Source: a virus. Taken from it: 20,864 bases of DNA. The translations under genes and the position numbers were made by a program. The stretch is from the IMG/VR virus record IMGVR_UViG_3300047510_000706, positions 1 through 20,864 of that record. The stretch is one strand, 5' to 3'. The notes under the pieces were generated by a model, which did not search any database, was not told the origin of the DNA, and saw only the letters and a program-made list of their open reading frames with translations. Of the stretch, positions 1,732-18,958 are shown in pieces. The number at the start of each line of letters is the position of its first letter. Position 1 is the stretch's first letter.

Positions 1732-1739
1732 TATTTATG
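1732..1739 (-). promoter_or_regulatory. T4-type late promoter box for the gp54/gp48-like gene (CATAAATA)
   Basis: On the minus strand CATAAATA is followed by TTAAT and then the ATG at 1726. The T4 late consensus is TATAAATA with transcription starting about six bases after the box, which places the predicted start on or next to the ATG. No Shine-Dalgarno fits between box and ATG. The box lies five bases beyond the terminator at 1744-1770. Confidence 0.75.
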
Positions 1740-2425: not shown

Positions 2426-5400
2426 TTAAATCTCTCCTGTGTTCTTGATACGTAATGGAATGTAGATGAATTCAACTGCTTTAGTTGGTTCAATAGCAAC
2501 ATCTACATACAATTCATTACGATCAATTCTGCTTGGTGTATTGTTACTTTCATCGCAGACAACCGCAAAGTCGTATAGAGCTCTCAAACCTACCAACTCT
2601 AACAATAGGCTTTCTACAGCACCTTTGATTTCGTCTCTTGTAATTTTATCGTTTGGTTCAAATATGTAAGGACGAGCTAGTTTGTTCAACTGGCTACGTA
2701 GATACACAACTAAACGTGCTACGTTGATACGATCTAGTGCTGATGCATTTCTTGCACGAGTCTTTTGACCGTAAGCTACTAATCCTACTCCAACAAAGAA
2801 CGGAATTGGATTAACTTTTAGATCATACAATGTATCTCGTTGACCTTCGTTTAGTGCAACACTTTGGAATTCACCAGTTAAGCTGTCGATGTAACCAACC
2901 GCTGTTGCATTAGTAATGCCACCGCGTCTTGTACCTGCTGGTGCAAACCATGGATAGCTAACTTGATCGCTTAATGCTATTGTACGCAACATCATGTGTG
3001 ATGCTGGAACAACTGCATTAGCACCACCCAAGTCTGTGGTAAATCCGTTTGGATACCAAACTGCGGCATACTCGTCGTAGCTAACAATACCTACATCGTT
3101 GTTGTCTAGTGCGCTATTTGCGTTTGTACCCCAAGCTGTTAGGCTTGTAGCATCGCTTGGTAAGCGGAATGGAGTATCTCCAACAACAAACGCTGTTAGT
3201 CCACGATCAATGTTCAAGTTGATCAAATTGCTTAGTGCTTCTGGGTACCCAGGAGCAGCAATTAGATTAAAGTTACGACGTTCTTCATCGCGTGCCTCTG
3301 AGCTTGTGTCAAGAGCACTCTTGATTCTTTGTACAACTAATGAACGTTGTGCTTTGCGACCAAAGCTGCCAGAACCGTCTTCGTTGTTTGGACTTGCTGT
3401 TACCCAACGATCGGTAGCATATGTTGTCATGCTGTCGCCTAATACTGGTGCATCACCTACAGAATTATATGCCAATTCAAATCTTACATTCTTTTCGGCT
3501 GTATTAATATAGCTGTTAGCATAACGTTTAACGTTGCCACCGCTTCTGCGTAGATTCCATAGCAACATACCTTTTGGATATAATACTGGATCTGGACAAT
3601 CTGGATCTACATAGTTGCTGACTAATAAATCTTTGATAGTTGCTGCTTCGTCGCCTGTAGCACCGCTATCACCGTAACGTGCATCAGCAAATAACACACC
3701 TTCTTCTGTGGTTTGATCTGCTTTGTCAACTAATACCCATCTTTCAGAAACGGTTGTACCAGCAGTTGTATTGAATCTATAAATTGTTGGGAAATTTTCT
3801 AAATCAGCTGTGCTAATCCATAAATCTCCGTCAACTAGATTGCTAGTTCCGTTGCTTTGCTTTTCAGGCATAGTAGCTGCAACAATAGGACCATTTGCAT
3901 CGGTTCCCGAATATCCTGAAGTAGCATCTTGATAACCAACCCAAATAGTTCCGTTGTGAATCATAATATCAACTTCACCAAAGTTTGGATTATACCATAA
4001 CTGACCATCAGTTGGCTCGTTTAATGGTTGATCGGCGCTGGCTGCAAAAGTATCGATAGCCAATGGTGCCCATCCTGTAGCTAGATAATCTACAGCAGAT
4101 CCGCTAGGTGCTGCATAAAAATTAGCAGTACCAAAACCAGTTCCTAGATTAAATGGCGTAAATGCATCAGCAATTGGTGTTCCAGTGCCGTCAACAAATC
4201 GAATATCGCCGCCTAACGTATGTGTAAGGACTACTTCGTTTCGATCCGTAATAGAAGCAGTTAGGTTGTTTGGAATTGCGACTGGCGGAGTTGTATTTGT
4301 AAACCCAAAGTTTGCATTAGCGATCGCTGCTGCAAATGCTTCGGCATCATCTGTACCACTTGAGGTAGTTGTAAATGAAATTTCTGCAGAATACAATGTA
4401 GCAGAACCTTTTACAGATTGATATACCGTAAATGTGTTAGTAACTGAACCAAATGTATTATCTGCAATTACACCAGATGTAATCGATGTTGCACCACCTG
4501 CTGCTCGTTTCCATAGTCTAAATGATGCAGTACCTGGAGTTGTATCAAATCCTGATTCTTCATCTGCATTTGTCTGCACAAAAATGCTGTTTGCAGGAAT
4601 GTTTACACCACCACCACTTCTGTCTAAGAAGTATGAAGCAGCATGTGTAGATGCATACAATGGAGCTGAATATTCAATCCATGTTTTTGTTGCAGAATTC
4701 CATCTGTTAACAATAAATCTTGCGCCAAAGTTAGGTTCGGTAGTTTTAATCCATACAGAACCAGTTGGTCTTGGAGCAGAGTCTGTTGTCTTATATGCTG
4801 GGACACTGGTATGTGGTGTTTGCTGTAATGCTGGACCGTAGTATGCACCAGCAGTTAACCCTAATTGGGTAAATGCAGTTGCCGAATTTGTTCCACCACC
4901 AGCAATTGTAATACTATTTGCTAAAGAACTATCACCGCCGCCTAGTGTTTCGCCATCGGAATATAAGTATAATCTATTATTAACTTTAGCCGCTGTAACA
5001 CCTTCAATACCTAATCCGTTAATATGAGCAACATGCAAATCTAAAGAAGTTTGTGTAGTTACTAATGTGCCATTGATATAATATGTGTTTGCTGCTGCCA
5101 ATGTGCTAACAGACGATGTTCCGGTAATAGTTGGGTGGCTTGCTGTCCACTTTTGTGAACCAACTAATACCCACTCACCTGCGGTAACTGCTGTGCCACC
5201 ACCTGCAATCGCACCGTTACCAGCACTCTTGTAATAAACTTTAATTTGTTCGTTGCCTGCAACGAACGAACCCGTACCAGTTGTTGTTAACGCTACAATT
5301 GCGTAGTCGCCAACTGATCCTACAGAACCTTTTGGTTCAAATGAACTTTGATCTACTTTAGAAACATCGTCGTCTGTTAAAACAATAGGAGCTTTATAAG

Positions 5401-5887
5401 TAAATTTCTGGCCGCCAACGGTAGTTGCTGCTGCACCATTCCATTCTTGAATACCGTATGTAGTTCCTCTAGTATCAAACCACCACTGACCATCTGTTGG
5501 TTCTGCTCCCGGAGCGGTTGTCTGAGGTTCTAATTGATCTAAGTCGACATCAGCTCTCATAATAAAAGCAGAGTTACTTACTCCTAGGAAACTATAAGCA
5601 GCTAACAATCCATATTCGTTTCTTTCTGAACCGTGAATAGGAGTTGAACTTGCTGTCTTTTCAAAGAACGGAACACCAAACGTGTCAACTAATTCACGCT
5701 GGCTTGTAATTCTAAACACTTTCGAAGCATTAGCTTGAGTGGTTCCGGCAGCAGTTCCTGTTCCTGCTGCATTTGATTTATTCTGTGCTGTAGCTACTAC
5801 GATAAGGGGAGTAGTACCAGGCTCTGCTGGTGTGTAAAAACTCTCATCAATTACCGTAACTTCTACGCCTGGGGATACTAGTGCCAT
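2426..5887 (-). CDS. 18: Tail sheath protein, T4 gp18-like, with large inserted modules
   Basis: This encodes 1153 residues; T4 gp18 has 659. The protein is the contractile sheath. The sheath core is clear at both ends: N-terminal MALVSPGVEVTVIDES and the following domain to about residue 120, and C-terminal segments including GIVSYDEYAAVWYPNG, a Cys-containing strand FAVVCDESNNTPSRID and IEPTKAVEFIYIPLRIKNTG. Between about residues 122 and 735 lies a run of beta-rich insertions with four Trp modules of the type P-x-DG-x-LW...W (starting near 126, 371, 623 and 683) and two copies of a Gly/Ala/Thr-rich module (near 265-350 and 495-585). These insertions should decorate the sheath exterior. A strong Shine-Dalgarno (AGGAGAA, six bases before ATG) and a late box 31 bases upstream fit a highly expressed structural gene. 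Confidence 0.95.
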   Translation of the reverse strand: MALVSPGVEVTVIDESFYTPAEPGTTPLIVVATAQNKSNAAGTGTAAGTTQANASKVFRITSQRELVDTFGVPFFEKTASSTPIHGSERNEYGLLAAYSFLGVSNSAFIMRADVDLDQLEPQTTAPGAEPTDGQWWFDTRGTTYGIQEWNGAAATTVGGQKFTYKAPIVLTDDDVSKVDQSSFEPKGSVGSVGDYAIVALTTTGTGSFVAGNEQIKVYYKSAGNGAIAGGGTAVTAGEWVLVGSQKWTASHPTITGTSSVSTLAAANTYYINGTLVTTQTSLDLHVAHINGLGIEGVTAAKVNNRLYLYSDGETLGGGDSSLANSITIAGGGTNSATAFTQLGLTAGAYYGPALQQTPHTSVPAYKTTDSAPRPTGSVWIKTTEPNFGARFIVNRWNSATKTWIEYSAPLYASTHAASYFLDRSGGGVNIPANSIFVQTNADEESGFDTTPGTASFRLWKRAAGGATSITSGVIADNTFGSVTNTFTVYQSVKGSATLYSAEISFTTTSSGTDDAEAFAAAIANANFGFTNTTPPVAIPNNLTASITDRNEVVLTHTLGGDIRFVDGTGTPIADAFTPFNLGTGFGTANFYAAPSGSAVDYLATGWAPLAIDTFAASADQPLNEPTDGQLWYNPNFGEVDIMIHNGTIWVGYQDATSGYSGTDANGPIVAATMPEKQSNGTSNLVDGDLWISTADLENFPTIYRFNTTAGTTVSERWVLVDKADQTTEEGVLFADARYGDSGATGDEAATIKDLLVSNYVDPDCPDPVLYPKGMLLWNLRRSGGNVKRYANSYINTAEKNVRFELAYNSVGDAPVLGDSMTTYATDRWVTASPNNEDGSGSFGRKAQRSLVVQRIKSALDTSSEARDEERRNFNLIAAPGYPEALSNLINLNIDRGLTAFVVGDTPFRLPSDATSLTAWGTNANSALDNNDVGIVSYDEYAAVWYPNGFTTDLGGANAVVPASHMMLRTIALSDQVSYPWFAPAGTRRGGITNATAVGYIDSLTGEFQSVALNEGQRDTLYDLKVNPIPFFVGVGLVAYGQKTRARNASALDRINVARLVVYLRSQLNKLARPYIFEPNDKITRDEIKGAVESLLLELVGLRALYDFAVVCDESNNTPSRIDRNELYVDVAIEPTKAVEFIYIPLRIKNTGEI

Positions 5888-5978: not shown

Positions 5979-5986
5979 TGTAAATA
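5979..5986 (+). promoter_or_regulatory. T4-type late promoter box for the HNH-like gene (TGTAAATA)
   Basis: TGTAAATA on the plus strand is followed by TTTGT and the ATG at 5992, a 5-base spacer with no Shine-Dalgarno, the same geometry as at gp54/gp48 and gp13. It diverges from the gp18 box 52 bases away. Confidence 0.68.
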
Positions 5987-5991
5987 TTTGT

Positions 5992-6327
5992 ATGAGGCCA
6001 CTTTGCAGATGCGGACAGCGACCAAAAGCTGTTAATTATAAAAAAAATAACAAGACTTACTATAGAAGTCTCTGCGAAATCTGCATGGCTAACGGTGTTA
6101 ATCACGGAATACCCCGCTGGTTTAGGGCAGGGTATAGAATAAAATCACAATGCGAGAAATGCGGATTTAAATCAACACACAAAGAAGTTTTTAGAGTGTT
6201 CCATGTCGACAGCAATTTAGATAATTGTCGACATAGTAATTTAAAAACTATATGTTGTAATTGCAGTCAGATTTTATCCAAAGAAGGGTACACATGGAGG
6301 CAAGGCGACCTCATTGCTGATTACTAA
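5992..6327 (+). CDS. Small zinc-binding protein with HNH-nuclease-like motif
   Basis: This encodes 111 residues. Cysteine pairs C5/C7, C28/C31, C54/C57 and C88/C91 suggest two zinc sites. The second half reads like an HNH (His-Me finger) core: a CEKCGF knuckle at 54-59, FHVDSNLDN at 70-78 (candidate catalytic His71), then NLKTICCNC at 83-91. I recall similar small Cys-rich proteins in T4-like cyanophages. HNH proteins can be homing nucleases or packaging accessories. This one is late-expressed by its promoter and lies between sheath and gp1, but nothing shows its target. It is on the plus strand, opposite its neighbours, and its last 54 bases overlap the 3' end of the gp1 gene tail to tail. 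Nuclease activity is not proven; it could be a purely DNA- or protein-binding zinc protein. Confidence 0.65.
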   Translation: MRPLCRCGQRPKAVNYKKNNKTYYRSLCEICMANGVNHGIPRWFRAGYRIKSQCEKCGFKSTHKEVFRVFHVDSNLDNCRHSNLKTICCNCSQILSKEGYTWRQGDLIADY

Positions 6328-7001: not shown

Positions 7002-7760
7002 TTAGCCTATTACAAAAGTATAACCCTGACCACCAGATACAAGGGTTTCTAATTCTTTTGTAAGTCTCTCAAGATCAGATGTTGCTTCTGATTTCATTGC
7101 AGCACCATTTAGTGAGCTGCCGCCGCCCGGACCTGCAATTTGTGCAAACTTTTCACGGGCTTGTCCTAGCATCATCTTGCAGTTGGCTAGGCTGTAATCT
7201 TTAATCCATTGTCCTGCATAGGTATCTTCAATGATAGCAAAGTCCGGTCTTTGGTTATAAACCCAAAGCAAAACTTCTTCACTGCCTCTAGGACGTTGCT
7301 GTATCATAAGTTTTCTGCTTTGTGGTTGCCATGTAAAGTTAATAAAGCTACCGAACATCTTACCTACAAGTTCTTGGTATCCTGCAAACAATTCATAGGT
7401 TAATAAACCGCCCATGTTAGTGGAACTTAGCAAATATGTGTTTGTATAGGCTAGATTGAATGGTTCAAAAACCGTGCCGCCAGATCCGTTACCTGTTCTA
7501 GAACCAATACTTCTACGAAAAATTTGTCGAACTTGCTGTATTTCTTTTGGCAAGATGTACTCGTTTTGATCTTGATTCAGCGTTAAAAACGCATAGCTTT
7601 CTTCTACTGCGTTATCGCTGCGCTGACGAAAAACACCTAACGCCCTATCCAAGGCTGTTTGATAATGTTGCGGATCTAGTTCAACATCAATCATGCCGTC
7701 GCCCAGCATAGTTTTGCAATAATCGTATACTTTTTGTCTGGATTGATCTAATTGGCTCAT
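7002..7760 (-). CDS. 13: Neck protein, T4 gp13-like
   Basis: This encodes 252 residues from the ATG at 7760. T4 gp13, with gp14, forms the neck collar that completes the packaged head and accepts the tail. Recognisable features are the helical start MSQLDQSRQKVYDYCKTMLG, ELDPQHYQTALDRALGVFRQ (about 29-48), EYILPKEIQQVRQIFRR (about 68-84), FEPFNLAYTNTYLLSS (about 97-112), TYELFAGYQELVGKMFG (about 118-134), RPRGSEE and WIKDYSLANCKMMLGQAREKF. The frame stays open upstream to 7901 only through a TTG codon and would invade gp14. The ATG at 7760 has a late box 5 bases before it and fits the family start. There is no Shine-Dalgarno. The gene is divergent from gp14, whereas in T4 13, 14 and 15 are collinear. 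Confidence 0.92.
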   Translation of the reverse strand: MSQLDQSRQKVYDYCKTMLGDGMIDVELDPQHYQTALDRALGVFRQRSDNAVEESYAFLTLNQDQNEYILPKEIQQVRQIFRRSIGSRTGNGSGGTVFEPFNLAYTNTYLLSSTNMGGLLTYELFAGYQELVGKMFGSFINFTWQPQSRKLMIQQRPRGSEEVLLWVYNQRPDFAIIEDTYAGQWIKDYSLANCKMMLGQAREKFAQIAGPGGGSSLNGAAMKSEATSDLERLTKELETLVSGGQGYTFVIG

Positions 7761-7765
7761 GCTAG

Positions 7766-7773
7766 TATTTATC
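7766..7773 (-). promoter_or_regulatory. T4-type late promoter box for gp13 (GATAAATA)
   Basis: GATAAATA on the minus strand, then CTAGC, then the gp13 ATG. The 5-base spacer predicts a transcript starting at the ATG itself. It is separated from the gp14 box on the other strand by only five base pairs. Confidence 0.77.
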
Positions 7774-7778
7774 GTAGC

Positions 7779-7786
7779 GGTAAATA
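7779..7786 (+). promoter_or_regulatory. T4-type late promoter box for the gp14-gp15 operon (GGTAAATA)
   Basis: GGTAAATA on the plus strand, then TACTACT, then the ATG at 7794. The 7-base spacer and the lack of a Shine-Dalgarno predict a nearly leaderless mRNA. It sits back to back with the gp13 box. Confidence 0.72.
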
Positions 7787-7793
7787 TACTACT

Positions 7794-9374
7794 ATGCCAA
7801 GACTCTCGCTTTATCGCCCGCAAAAGGGCAATGATTATAAATTTATTGATAAAACCGTTTGGGAAATGTTTCAAGTGGGCGGAACCGATGTTTTTGTCCA
7901 CAAATACTTAGGCCCAAAAATTACACCTGCGTGGGATAGTTCTAAAACCTATTCTACGGGGGATTTGATTTCAATAAACAATAAGGTATATAAAGCAAGA
8001 ATTTCTAATACAGGAGTTATTCCTCCTAGTAACAATCATTGGGAATTTGTTAGAGAAGGTACGCCATCGCAGCCAATATATACACAACAGAATGTTTTAA
8101 ACATAGACGATCTATTATTTTTAGAAAATAGAGATAGAGATTACGACGAAGACATCTATGTACTACGAGGAGTATATAATCTTCAGGATATTGATTTTAA
8201 TTTAAGTCAGTTTGGTTTATTTTTACAGAATGACACAATATTTGTTACCTTCCATATCAACGATACGGTTGAAAAAGTAGGAAGAAAATTAGTATCTGGT
8301 GACGTAATTGAATTACCTCATTTGATAGATGAACATGCGCTAGGTGATTCAAAGACAGCATTAAAAAGATTTTTTGTAATTGAAGAAGTGACTCGTGCAG
8401 CAGAAGGATATTCAATAACTTGGTACCCTCATTTATACAGAGCAAAGTGCAAACCGATGACTGCTGCTCAAGAGTTTCAAGATATCCTTGACGATCTTGC
8501 TAATCCAGAAAGTTTCTTAGGCGGATATAATCAAGATTACGAATATCAGCCTGGGGATATTATTGGTTACCCAACTGCTGGGGATAACAAATACGAAGCT
8601 ATCCAAACTAGCACAGGTGTTGCTCCATTGAATATAGACGGAAGTGTAAACATAGCCTATTGGAAACCAGCAGATACCATTGGTGATACTTCAACTACCT
8701 ATGATAAAGAAATGCAAATTACTTCTAGTGTGCTTGAACAAGCTGAACTAGATTCTCCTAAAAGTGGGTATGACACTACTCGTCATTACATGCTGGCCAC
8801 TGACACTGACGGCCAAGTATCTTTAATTACTGCGGACACAACAAACTTAGATGCTACGCTTGAGCAGGCTAGAGATGCCAATGGCAACCTAATGTGGGAA
8901 CACGACCCTGCTACAGGTCAAGATAAACTAGACGAAAACGGAGATAGAATTCCGTTCTACTATCCAAGAACTAGTGCTGTTTATCAGAGTCCTACATACG
9001 ACGGGCCAGGTACAGGCGACGGGGATGGTATTCCTCCAAACGGTATTGCATTTACTGCAAGTATTAGCTTTCCAATAAATCCAGCAGAAGGACAATTCCA
9101 TTTGCGTACTGATTACATGCCAAAGAGACTATTTAGATTTAGTGGGACTCGTTGGGTTAAAGTTGAGGATCTAACTCGAATGACTATGAATAATATGGGG
9201 TACGAAGATGTAACGCCAGGCGGTTCACCGGCGGATGCATATTTAGATAAAGATGTAAGATTAACTCAAAAGACTACGTTTATCAATAACAATAAAGTCA
9301 ATACTATTAACGGTAAGCAAGTTAAAGAAAAACAAAGTTTGAGTAAAGCACTACGACCTAAGGCAGACGAATAA
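7794..9374 (+). CDS. 14: Neck protein, T4 gp14-like, with carbohydrate-binding-like insertions
   Basis: This encodes 526 residues from the ATG at 7794, about twice T4 gp14 (256). The cyanophage-type core is clear: MPRLSLYRPQKGNDYKF, VGGTDVFVHKYLGP, DDLLFLENRDRDYDEDIYVL, FNLSQFGLFLQNDTIFVTFH, VSGDVIELPHLIDEHALGD and the Trp-containing YSITWYPHLYRAKCKPM, followed by QEFQDILDD. Insertions include a CBM5/12-like module at about residues 47-86 (W...Y.TGD.I..N..VYKA...W), a second at about 244-296 (Y.PGDII...KYEA...YWKP), and a Trp-rich GTRWVKV module around 432-457 of the kind also in the sheath. The frame upstream to 7752 starts only with TTG and crosses the promoter. The stop overlaps the gp15 start as TAATG. 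The gene heads a four-gene plus-strand operon. Confidence 0.88.
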   Translation: MPRLSLYRPQKGNDYKFIDKTVWEMFQVGGTDVFVHKYLGPKITPAWDSSKTYSTGDLISINNKVYKARISNTGVIPPSNNHWEFVREGTPSQPIYTQQNVLNIDDLLFLENRDRDYDEDIYVLRGVYNLQDIDFNLSQFGLFLQNDTIFVTFHINDTVEKVGRKLVSGDVIELPHLIDEHALGDSKTALKRFFVIEEVTRAAEGYSITWYPHLYRAKCKPMTAAQEFQDILDDLANPESFLGGYNQDYEYQPGDIIGYPTAGDNKYEAIQTSTGVAPLNIDGSVNIAYWKPADTIGDTSTTYDKEMQITSSVLEQAELDSPKSGYDTTRHYMLATDTDGQVSLITADTTNLDATLEQARDANGNLMWEHDPATGQDKLDENGDRIPFYYPRTSAVYQSPTYDGPGTGDGDGIPPNGIAFTASISFPINPAEGQFHLRTDYMPKRLFRFSGTRWVKVEDLTRMTMNNMGYEDVTPGGSPADAYLDKDVRLTQKTTFINNNKVNTINGKQVKEKQSLSKALRPKADE

Positions 9375-10993
9375 TGGATTTCTTTTATGATGGTCAGATA
9401 AGACGATATGTTACGCAATTCATGCGTGTATTCATAGGTTTCAAATATAAAACCGGGGACGGCACGTTGAAGCATGTGCCAGTAACCTATGGAGATATGA
9501 CTAGACAAGTTGCTTCTCTTATTAAAGAAAATTCTGAAAATAAAATGTCATCTGTTCCTAAAATATCTTGCTACATTTCAGGATTAGAAATGGATTCTAC
9601 TCGGTTAGCAGATGCTAGTTTTGTTAGTAAATTAAACATACGAGAAAGAGCGTGGGAAGAAGTTGACGGAGAGATTGAATATCAGAATTATCAAGGTGGC
9701 GGATATACCGTTGAAAGATTGATGCCAACTCCTTTTAAACTAAGCATGAAGACTGATATATGGACTTCGAGCACTGATCAAAAATTACAATTAACAGAAC
9801 AAATTTTAGTATTGTTTAATCCTAGTTTAGAAATACAAACAACAGACAATTATATTGATTGGACTAGTTTAAGCGTGATTGATTTAGCATCAATTAATTT
9901 TACATCAAGGTCTATTCCTGTAGGAACTGAATCTGAAATTGATATATGTAGTTTAGAATTTAAGATGCCCATCTATATAAGCCCGCCAGCAAAAGTTAAG
10001 AAGCTTGGTGTTGTTAGAAATCTAATTATGAATGTATTTGGCGAAACCGGTGATGTTCTATCATTAGACGATTTAATTTATAATGACAGCGTTAGCGGAG
10101 GCAGAGATTCAGGTGGGGCTAATGTTAGATTGCCAGTGGTCAAAGGTGATTATAGAGTATTGCTGTTAAAAAGTAACAACGGTCAGGCAGGAGATTATGA
10201 TCTGTCAATAGTTAATCCTAATGAAGTAGTTGCTACTGCTGGGCTGTTACCTCCATCTAAACTTGGAGAGCGATTAGATTGGGCTAAAGTGTTAGATTTA
10301 TATGGAGGTTATATTCCTCAAATTAGCAAAGTATATTTCTTACAACCAGACGGAACCGAAATAGGCGGAACGTTTATTATCAATGAACTAGATCCAACAT
10401 TAATGTTAGTTTCAATTGATGAAATTCCGTCTAATACTATTATTATCGGTCCAGCAAGATCGCCTAATCAATCGTCTACTATTGATGCAATTATTGATCC
10501 TTACAAATATAATCCAAAGAGGCCCAATAACGAAACTGAAGATCAAACAATTATTCCAGGAACAAGATTCTTAATGCTCGATGATGTAAACCCCAACGGT
10601 GCGAACCAAGACGGACCCGATGCATGGAAAAACTTAAACGGCAGCGATCCTATAATAAGAGCTAATACTATTATAGAATGGAGCGGTACTGCGTGGATTG
10701 ATTTATTAGTTGAATGGGAAATTTCAAATTATCCTGTTAATAACACAATTGTTTACACATCAGGACAAATTGTAACCTACGATGGAGTGGCCTACAAGGC
10801 CTTGGCAAACATAACTCAAGCCGACAATGTAGTAATACCTGCTGACAATCCAAAATTTCAAATTACTTCTATTATATTTCAAAATTTGAGAACTGGGTTA
10901 CAATACAGAAGAGATGGTTCTGGACAATGGTACAAGAGTTTTGAAGGAGAATATGCTTCAGGATATTGGAGATTTGACCTAGACCCTGCATAA
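9374..10993 (+). CDS. 15: Tail completion and sheath stabiliser protein, T4 gp15-like, with C-terminal extension
   Basis: This encodes 539 residues (T4 gp15 has 272). gp15 closes the top of the tail and joins it to the neck. The first ~235 residues match the family: MDFFYDGQIRRYVTQFMRVF, a short basic segment, VPVTYGDMTRQV (about 36-47), then SVPKISCYISGLEMD, PTPFKLSMKTDIWTSSTDQK, LVLFNPSLEIQTTDNYIDW and MPIYISPPAKVKKLG. The remaining ~300 residues are beta-rich. They include a TRFLMLDDVNPNG segment, a WSGTAWIDL module, a CBM-like stretch at about 447-495 (VYTSGQIVTYDGVAYKALANI) and a final W-rich end (GQWYKSFEGEYASGYWRFDL). I recall part of this extension in cyanophage gp15; the CBM-like stretch looks like a later insertion. 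Translation is coupled to gp14 by TAATG. Confidence 0.87.
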   Translation: MDFFYDGQIRRYVTQFMRVFIGFKYKTGDGTLKHVPVTYGDMTRQVASLIKENSENKMSSVPKISCYISGLEMDSTRLADASFVSKLNIRERAWEEVDGEIEYQNYQGGGYTVERLMPTPFKLSMKTDIWTSSTDQKLQLTEQILVLFNPSLEIQTTDNYIDWTSLSVIDLASINFTSRSIPVGTESEIDICSLEFKMPIYISPPAKVKKLGVVRNLIMNVFGETGDVLSLDDLIYNDSVSGGRDSGGANVRLPVVKGDYRVLLLKSNNGQAGDYDLSIVNPNEVVATAGLLPPSKLGERLDWAKVLDLYGGYIPQISKVYFLQPDGTEIGGTFIINELDPTLMLVSIDEIPSNTIIIGPARSPNQSSTIDAIIDPYKYNPKRPNNETEDQTIIPGTRFLMLDDVNPNGANQDGPDAWKNLNGSDPIIRANTIIEWSGTAWIDLLVEWEISNYPVNNTIVYTSGQIVTYDGVAYKALANITQADNVVIPADNPKFQITSIIFQNLRTGLQYRRDGSGQWYKSFEGEYASGYWRFDLDPA

Positions 10994-14600: not shown

Positions 14601-17600
14601 CTACCCAGTTTGCACCGTTATCAACCGAATATGCAGCGGCTGTTCCGCCGCTGGCTACTGCTATAAAATATGCAGATGATCCAATAAGACCACCTGTAAC
14701 ATCTTCCCAAGTTGTTGAGCTTGGTAGAGTTGCTGCGACCCAGTTTGCTCCGCCGTCTGTACTATACGCAGCGGCTGTTGATCCAGATCTAACAGCAACA
14801 AACACACCATTATAAAATGTTACTGAAATCCAAGTTCCTGAACTAGGTAAGGTTGCCGCTGACCACGATGATCCAGCGTTGACGCTATATGCAGCGGCTG
14901 TTCCGCCACTAGCTACTGCTACAAAAGTTGGGGTAGTTCCAATTACACCAGCAGCAATACTAGTCCATGTTGCAGCACTCGGTAAATTTCCACCTGCACT
15001 CCATGTTTGACCGTCTAAAGAAAATGCAGTAGGTTGAGCACCTGACCTAACAGCAATAAATGTGCCACCGGCAAATGCTACCCCAGTCCATGATCCAGAA
15101 GCAGGTAGTGTTCTTGCTGTTGATGCAAATGCTGGAGCAGGAGTTGATGTGACGCTTGTTAAGATAGTTGTTCCTGGAAGGAGTCCATGATTAGAAGTAA
15201 AATCAACTTGGATGGTAGCAATAGCTCCAACATTCAATACCGTTCCATCAGATAGTTCGCCAGTCAATGCTTCACTGATAGTCAATGCAGGATAGATTGA
15301 AATCTCATCTCCTGCATATGCAGTTCCTGAAATTGTTGCGGTAGTAATTCCGCCTGTTAAATTTACTCCGGTTACCGTAACTACAGCATTATTTGCAGGT
15401 GTAGCACCATCTAAGTTTGAACCGTTGATTAAAATTCTATTTCCAATAGCATACCCAGTTCCTGAACCAGTAGCCGGTGTAGTAAATACCGGAGTGACTA
15501 CGGTATAAGTTCCAGTTACTCTGGTTATGTTAAATGTTGCACTACTTCCAGTAACTGGTTGATTGGTTGCAGTTAACCCTGTATAGGTAGCATCGCCGGT
15601 TGCTCCTATAGGCTCTCCAACTATTTCATAGTCAACTATAGCATCTGTTCCAAACTGAACACCGTTAACTAAAATAACAATGTCGTTTGCTGTAGTTGCG
15701 CCGTCAAACGATGTACCATACCATGTTATGGTGTCTCCAGGTTGATACCCAGTACCGCCATTACTTAGGTTAATAGTATATGCGCCAGTACCGCCTTCTC
15801 TAATAACATCTACCAATGCTCCGGCACCGCCGCTGCTGGTAGTTGCGCTAGATGCAACGCTGGTATAGTTTCCTCCGCCGTCAATACTTGCACCGGAAGC
15901 TGAGAATCCTACAATCGCTCCGCCGGAGTCAACTTCAGTAACTGCAATTAAAACGTCATTAGCTGGACTTGCTCCTCCTAAATCAGTTCCTGCAATTAAC
16001 AGCCTATCGCCTACAACATAATTAATACCGTTTGAGGAACTATCTTGAGAATCTGTTACAACATATAAGCCACCAGATCGTGTGACGTCAAATGTTGCAG
16101 ATGTTCCAATTCCATCAATGTTAGCACCGCTAACGCCTGTATTAATTGAATTTGCACCTGTATATGTTTGTCCAATCTCTCCAGACAAATAAACGGTATT
16201 ACCCTCTAATGAATTTATAAAGACTGCATTGTTTAGTCCGTCATCGATGGCCATTCCCTGTTGAACGCCAGTAAGATCTACTAGAGTAATATTTGTATCA
16301 GACGTATCTGTAATATCGTCTAATACATTGGCCACAATAGTTCCTGTTCCTACTACTCCGCTGACCGATGTACCTGCAGGAATTAACGGTGAACCTTGGA
16401 TTGGAGAGCCGCCAGTTGGTGCTGTGCCGTCAAAGGCTAAAGAAAAAGACCCGATTGGGGTGTCAAATTTTGATGTTATGTTTAGATTAGATCCATTACT
16501 AGCTACAGAGAAAGTTGGTGCTCCGATTGACGAACCTGTATAAAATCCTGCTTGACGAATTTGAACGAATGTAGTATATAAACTATCTCCGTTGAAAACT
16601 CCAACTTTAGACGACGAGTAATATGTAAAACTAATTGAGCTTGGTACACTGAAAACTAAGAAAGATCCCTCTGCTCTCGAAAATCCAGAAATTGCAGGAC
16701 TTAATCCTTTAACCGTAATCGGTTGTCCGGGGACGAACCCGTGAGATCCAGAAGTAGTTACGGTGATCAATGAGCTACCAAACCCTCCCGTATTGGTCGA
16801 TGCATCTGTTATAATAGCAGTGACTGATAGATCAGTTCCTGGAACTTCATATAAGGATGGATAACTCCTAATCAATCCCAACGCTTGCCACTTAGTTGGC
16901 TGCAATCCGTACTCAAAGTCAGCGTCAAGCATGGCCTGCGGAGCAGCAACACGCATACGTTCAATGGCATCTGTGCCAAAGTCCCAAGGACGAATAGTCT
17001 GATAGGCTTCTTCAACAAATATTTGTAAATCAGTAGTTGATGTTAGCAAACTAGTATCTTCAGACAGCTTAATAGTTGTTATGGTGTCAGTAGCTTGCCA
17101 CCATGCAGGGAAATCTAAATCACTGAGTAATTCACCATCTCCACTAGATCTGCCTTGTTTATACTCCATACTAACAGAATTAGTTGGGTCTGCAAAGTTA
17201 TAAAGAATTTGACCCGTATTAGTATTTGTTATCAATAATAATTCGCTTGGTTCTATTTTTCCTAAAACTTTAATTGCACTTATTCCGGAAATTTTTGTAG
17301 GAATTGCTCCCGGACCGTTTTCTATAACGCCGCTTAACAAATTCCATAGGGTAGTATTTCTACTGCTAGCACCAGCTTCAGCATTTTGACCAACGTATTT
17401 GGTTTGTACCACAGATGTTTGATTATATGATGGCGATACCGTTGTATTAGTAAAAATAAAGTTGTTGATAATGTCTCTTAGATATTGCTGACCAGTTACT
17501 TCTGGACTAACATCACCACGGATCATTGGTTCTCCGTCGATGTGGAAGTAATCAGCAACTTGTCTAATTTTTACATTGCCGCCGTATCTAAGATCGTGTA

Positions 17601-18505: not shown

Positions 18506-18943
18506 TTAGTATGGCGTGAGATCATTGATCGTATGATAATAAGTTGCGCTGAATATTAACTTTGAACCAACTAGCAATGATGAGTTATCGTATGTGCTGT
18601 CGTTGGGGCTACTAGCAGGGTTTGCTAATAATTGTAGTTTTGATGCAGTTACCACTGCTGTTAAATCTATTAAATTTTCGTTTAAATTTGTTCTACCATA
18701 AGTAGTTACGTTTGCTTGTTCTGGTCCTGCAACCACTAAACATTTGACCATTTCTTTTCTAGTGTTCCCTACATCAACTACAATGGTATATTCTGCGGCC
18801 ATAAAATCGCCTACATACCATTCGTCAACAACGGTATTAGTTGTAACGCTTTGCCAAGGCCCTTTATAAGCTAGATTTACTCCGTTTTGTACACGGAGAG
18901 TATTTTTTATACCTTGAAAGAAAAATTTAGCGAAATTTAACAT
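18506..18943 (-). CDS. Small beta-rich virion protein of cyanophage type
   Basis: This encodes 145 residues from the ATG at 18943. After a hydrophobic/aromatic start (MLNFAKFFFQGIKN) come strands EWYVGDFMAAEYTIVVDVG (about 40-58), MVKCLVVAGPEQANVTTYGR (about 65-84), NLIDLTAVVTASKLQLLANP and GSKLIFSATYYHTIN. I recall the AEYTI.V...K.....LVVAGP..A....YGR signature from modules within large virion proteins of cyanophages, so this is likely a stand-alone copy of that beta-sandwich module. An eight-codon upstream extension begins with TTG and runs through the promoter and terminator, so I reject it. A late box lies 7 bases before ATG with no Shine-Dalgarno. The exact role is unknown; structural by kinship and context. 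Confidence 0.72.
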   Translation of the reverse strand: MLNFAKFFFQGIKNTLRVQNGVNLAYKGPWQSVTTNTVVDEWYVGDFMAAEYTIVVDVGNTRKEMVKCLVVAGPEQANVTTYGRTNLNENLIDLTAVVTASKLQLLANPASSPNDSTYDNSSLLVGSKLIFSATYYHTINDLTPY

Positions 18944-18950
18944 AGTAATA

Positions 18951-18958
18951 TATTTATC
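18951..18958 (-). promoter_or_regulatory. T4-type late promoter box for the 145-residue virion protein (GATAAATA)
   Basis: GATAAATA on the minus strand, then TATTACT, then ATG at 18943. The 7-base spacer lacks a Shine-Dalgarno. The box lies directly behind the carbamoyltransferase terminator, repeating the arrangement at 1732-1770. Confidence 0.76.

Follow-up and report, generated by a model that had tools for sequence, protein, structure and literature searches.

Introduction

Leaderless transcripts with a -10 element beside the start codon are known, for example, from Mycobacterium and from the cI gene of phage lambda; in these cases the promoter element is placed so that position +1 is the start codon. 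In phage T4, the late promoter is a gp55-dependent 8-bp box (TATAAATA) that spans positions -13 to -6, its first T being at -13, and late activation depends on how the loaded gp45 clamp is oriented (PMC2988020). Between 12 and 35 nt separate the T4 ATAAATA motif from the ATG, mostly with a Shine-Dalgarno (SD) sequence in between. Bidirectional promoters with facing -10-like elements, whose start sites are close enough for mutual exclusion, have been described in E. coli and in other prokaryotes (Warman, Grainger and colleagues; PMC12825309). For pelagimyophages, prediction of late promoters was reported to have failed (PMC7029224).

The locus analyzed here lies in a 20,864-base virus record (hereafter "the window"), a fragment rather than a whole genome, for which a DNA-level search of phage records returned no match. 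It resembles T4 in having an 8-bp box of the same consensus, a gp55-type sigma factor (found in relatives of the window) and structural genes on either strand (PMC2988020), but it differs in that the box abuts the ATG, in that one of its two boxes, that of gp14, varies at position -12 (G), and in that two models failed to reveal a gp45. It shares facing elements with the bidirectional promoters, from which it is set apart by the use of a phage late box in place of a sigma-70 -10 element, by the presence, usually, of two separate boxes and by the prediction that both transcripts are leaderless. Unlike the Mycobacterium and lambda cI cases, this layout is seen in a T4-like jumbo-phage lineage, in the sigma-70 and late promoter classes alike, with SD-led genes alongside.

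Results

Facing late boxes in the gp13-gp14 gap

The start codons of gp13 (positions 7002 to 7760, minus strand, 252 aa; ATG at 7760-7758) and of a gp14-type gene (7794 to 9374, plus strand, 526 aa) enclose a 33-bp divergent gap, 7761-7793. The gp13 box, GATAAATA, lies on the minus strand at 7773-7766 and ends 5 nt before the gp13 ATG. The gp14 box, GGTAAATA, lies on the plus strand at 7779-7786 and ends 7 nt before the gp14 ATG. The spacer between the two 8-mers (7774-7778) measures 5 bp, which places the TAAATA cores 9 bp apart. Reading of 7761-7793 thus bears out, letter for letter, the geometry of the original prediction, namely a 33-bp gap with two facing boxes 5 bp from each other. Judged by their sequence, both are T4-type late boxes that match TATAAATA with limited deviation.

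The RTAAATA motif is not enriched in the window (8 occurrences as opposed to 14.4 expected from shuffles), so that a single box means little and the weight must come from position and conservation. The window contains a single instance of the full arrangement, CAT-N4-8-TATTTA-N0-22-TAAATA-N4-8-ATG, for which 300 first-order Markov simulations gave a mean of 0.0. A chance origin of the paired boxes was considered and is ruled out by this simulation together with the conservation across loci described below.

From its profile matches, the minus-strand gene is that of the gp13 neck protein (head-tail adaptor Ad2): it matches phrog_211 at 1.3e-34 and T4 gp13 in the PDB at 1.5e-6, and its nearest isolates are Phosso, Atu_ph07 and PA5oct, at 43-46% identity. 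The identity of the plus-strand gene as gp14 is probable rather than proven. Its product matches phrog_11591, an unnamed structural family, and the gene directly precedes gp15 (PF16724), a synteny that supports the assignment. Chains of T4 gp14 make up the top four PDB fold matches, but the model is of low confidence (pLDDT 54); comparison with T4 gp14 by hhalign gave an E-value of 0.003 but a probability of only 10%. No match to PF11649 was found for the 526-aa product, nor any match when the gp14 profile was run against PDB sequences. The protein is 526 aa long here and 256 in T4, and CBM_5_12-like modules are inserted within both gp14 (7794-9374) and gp15 (9374-10993). The start codons of gp13 and gp14 hold in distant homologues.

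The original prediction had proposed checking whether the gap and both boxes are conserved in related phages, and they are. Nearly all of 80 IMG/VR loci that carry gp13 have a late box 5 nt before the ATG of this gene. These relatives are metagenomic contigs whose genes were called by a simple longest-ORF method. After removal of near-duplicates, the box is found at 5 nt in 67 of 67 gp13 genes and at 4-8 nt, mostly 7-8 nt, in 61 of 62 gp14 genes. Both genes could be scored in 62 loci, namely the window and 61 others from the dereplicated set, which share kinship, so that the counts are not independent; in 60 of these loci both boxes occupy a compact gap of 24-45 bp. The gp14 box reads CGGTAAATA in 54 of these 60 and the gp13 box NATAAATA in 58. 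In the two exceptions, genes resembling HNH/homing endonucleases have been inserted in the gp13-gp14 gap: in L155 (about 9380-10000) an HNH-type gene sits between the boxes, bringing the gap to 505 bp with both boxes kept, and in L038 (about 3560-4266) such a gene sits between the gp14 box and the gp14 start. Loci from SAR11 and Rickettsiales bins retain the pair of boxes at an identity of 58%. As to the host of the window, the presence of relatives in these two kinds of bins gives weak hints only.

Distance between box and start codon

What the original prediction had left out, and what accounts for the shortness of the gap, is the fixed and near-zero distance from box to ATG (5 nt for gp13, 7-8 nt for gp14). 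By the T4 numbering, +1 coincides with the A of the ATG when 5 nt separate it from the box. In the window, the predicted +1 is therefore at 7760 for gp13 and at about 7792 for gp14; boxes 7-8 nt away leave room for a possible leader of 2-3 nt. Each gene would thus have its own T4-type, gp55-dependent late promoter, with transcription starting on or near the ATG, and the two proteins would be translated from leaderless mRNAs without an SD sequence. If the T4 start-site rule applies, then, the gp13 and gp14 mRNAs are probably leaderless, starting on the ATG or no more than about 3 nt from it, from two separate late promoters. With no leader required, the control region can be cut down to two boxes and two short box-to-ATG spacers, about 33 bp in all.

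For five of the eight boxes in the window, the distance to a gene's ATG is 5 or 7 nt. Besides the gp13-gp14 pair, these are CATAAATA (1732-1739, minus strand), which precedes by 5 nt a tail-tube-like gene with its ATG at 1726; a late-type box, TGTAAATA (5979-5986, plus strand), which lies at the same distance from the start of a 111-aa gene (ATG at 5992) and is similarly placed in 56 of 57 relatives; and a second copy of GATAAATA (18951-18958, minus strand), separated by 7 nt from the start of a 145-aa gene (ATG at 18943). The tail sheath gene (2426-5887, minus strand) has a CTAAATA box and an SD-bearing leader upstream, from which it appears that leadered and leaderless late genes coexist in the window. 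At 1153 aa, the sheath protein is far longer than T4 gp18. The product of the 111-aa gene (5992-6327, plus strand) is Cys-rich and weakly HNH-like (PF13392, below cut-off); its family counts 57 members in the dereplicated loci, and the 3′ end of the gene overlaps a dNMP kinase gene in antisense.

Of the 177 copies of ATAAATA in 68 dereplicated loci, 105 are followed by an ATG after exactly 5 nt, a distance at which the control 7-mers AATAATA and ATAATAA are never found. Because this set over-represents gp13, two long relatives, G001 (353 kb) and G002 (280 kb), were analyzed. In both, box-to-ATG distances cluster tightly at 4-6 nt and again, more loosely, around 15-35 nt; this second, broader group indicates that late genes are not all leaderless. 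The close type comprises 39 late-type genes in G001 and 23 in G002, where the set includes terminase, virion protein and endolysin genes. An SD sequence of at least 4 nt precedes 4 of the 39 and none of the 23, as against 249 of 419 and 183 of 338 other genes, respectively. When all 6-mers were scanned without bias, TAAATA ending 5 nt before the ATG ranked second in G001 (16 occurrences, 2.3 expected) and first in G002 (17, with 1.7 expected), SD motifs ranking beside it. By pattern, G001 holds two further compact divergent pairs.

A parallel layout was found for promoters of the sigma-70 type. TTGACA-N17-TATAAT-like sequences with the -10 element ending 6 nt before the ATG precede 8 genes in G001 and 10 in G002 (an example from the G001/G002 pieces L172-L203 is L193:9934-10272, plus strand), and they end at 5 nt in 2 and 3 more, respectively. 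The G002 genes with the TTGACA-N17-TATAAT-N6-ATG arrangement include those for primase, SbcD and an exonuclease. No sigma-70-like promoter at 5-6 nt before an ATG was seen in the analyzed stretches of seven reference phages, which were covered in stretches of 40-50 kb. Late and sigma-70 boxes are offset from each other by 1 nt, which is the difference that their known box-to-start distances call for if both start on the ATG. On sequence grounds, no argument for leaderless mRNAs is stronger than this concordance between two unrelated promoter classes, which suggests that early transcripts are leaderless too.

Spacing between the boxes and promoter competition

The distance between the TAAATA cores varies from locus to locus: 0 bp (3 loci), 4, 5, 8-10 bp (49 loci) and 19-20 bp (6 loci). 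The spacing class changed at least seven times on the gp13 tree, which indicates that each box is held together with its own distance to the ATG and that the distance between the boxes is not. A helical phasing of the spacer (0, 9, 19 bp) is not claimed, as spacings of 4, 5 and 14 bp also occur and the loci are related. In the 0-bp form (L004, L010 and L147) the boxes merge to give TATTTATAAATA, and 23 bp separate the predicted start sites. These fused loci stand at three separate places on the tree, two of them beside sister loci with 9-bp spacing.

The fused form raises the question of whether the gap is one bidirectional promoter of the type described by Warman et al., in which a single pseudo-symmetric -10-like element loads polymerase either way. 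The merged box is of that kind, 23 bp is among the distances listed for such promoters (10, 18 and 23 bp being typical) and the state appears at three separate positions on the tree. However, the shared element is confined to these three relatives. Most loci, the window included, have distinct boxes, 9 bp from core to core, and the predicted start distance of 32 bp falls outside the common classes. For the locus as a whole this reading appears unlikely, and we favor two separate late promoters.

The original prediction further held that gp13 and gp14 are driven by a shared, mutually exclusive promoter whose competition steadies the ratio of the two neck proteins. The first part agrees with the geometry. 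The predicted start sites lie about 32 bp apart in the window, 32 bp apart in 44 of 60 loci and 23-43 bp apart overall, so that polymerases on the facing boxes would sterically exclude each other, very likely in all compact loci; the spacing itself is not tuned. The second part, a tuned control of the gp13:gp14 ratio by exclusion, is unsupported. The conserved asymmetry between the gp13 and gp14 boxes could set unequal strengths, and Atu_ph07 and Phosso retain facing boxes despite having leaders. Against this, the spacing between the boxes has changed freely and repeatedly; both boxes persist in L155, where an insertion separates them; in PA5oct about 21 kb separate the two genes, each of which has a leadered box to itself; and in T4 they adjoin on one strand. 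Nor did the five E. coli bidirectional promoters tested compete at basal activity, which was too low for any cross-effect; competition appeared only on strong activation (PMC12825309). Altogether, a ratio-holding promoter seems very unlikely.

It is highly improbable that TAAATA near the ATG serves instead as an AU-rich ribosome-binding element in transcripts starting further upstream: although AU-rich and at the usual SD position, the element fits the late-promoter consensus and not generic AU-richness (see the control 7-mers), other genes in these genomes have the box 15-35 nt upstream, and the sigma-70 boxes are arranged alike, at the offset that transcription start would require.

Late transcription machinery

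A late sigma factor of the gp55 type was identified in four larger relatives, G001, G002, G004 and G008, with phrog_12791, at 4e-77 or better. The genes linked to the boxes, which are putatively late, include those for neck, tail, terminase and endolysin proteins. The gp45 clamp models PF09116 and phrog_223 were silent in the four relatives, in Atu_ph07 and in CBB; T4 was positive, as was S-PM2 with phrog_223. A search with PF02916 was uninformative, its control being silent as well. The late machinery may thus differ from that of T4, and a divergent gp45 clamp in the lineage is possible. Both G001 (33352-33510) and G002 (15466-15624) encode a ribosomal protein bS21; no phage IF3 was found.

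Discussion

The divergent arrangement of gp13 and gp14 is shared by Atu_ph07 and Phosso, in which late boxes also face each other; the gaps there differ, being 68 and 81 bp long, with boxes further from the ATGs and SD-bearing leaders. Leaders are likewise present in the analyzed stretches of T4, S-PM2, CBB and PA5oct. The compact back-to-back layout of the window recurs across its family of giant T4-like phages. The closeness of box and start codon has its counterpart in Pelagibacter phage HTVC008M, the one cultured phage of this comparison in which many genes show it. At least six of its genes have a box 5 nt ahead of the ATG, and a 26-bp divergent gap (L168, 18916-18943) contains two late boxes that face each other at this distance from their start codons. 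HTVC008M differs in that the pair consists of the DNA-end-protector and head-closure genes and in that it belongs to another T4-like lineage (Kyanoviridae). Leadered genes also prevail in phages Cr30 (Caulobacter) and Mosig (Pelagibacter), which indicates that leaderlessness is not simply tied to host group. A literature search, with most subscription journals outside its reach, returned no report of leaderless late genes in this lineage.

One may speculate that clamp polarity chooses between the two divergent late promoters. A broader scenario would add to this an environmental lineage of T4-like jumbo phages that expresses part of its sigma-70 early and gp55 late genes from leaderless mRNAs, in which facing late promoters can for that reason fuse into one palindrome, translation in the infected cell is shifted to leaderless initiation (perhaps aided by bS21), and back-to-back promoters are selected by the polarity of clamp or replication and not by simple competition. 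Taken as a whole, this scenario is distinctly unlikely.

Boxes abutting the ATG could be a reason why late-promoter prediction failed in pelagimyophages. If confirmed, the leaderless layout would be something that standard predictors of promoters and gene starts can miss, and it would provide a rule for environmental phage genomes, in which the end of a box plus 5 or 6 nt marks the start codon, that would both correct gene starts and find promoters. The loci, with facing promoters spaced 0 to 20 bp from each other, also form a natural series suited to tests of polymerase interference. For the phages themselves, confirmation would mean that a whole T4-like group uses leaderless mRNAs for part of both its promoter classes.
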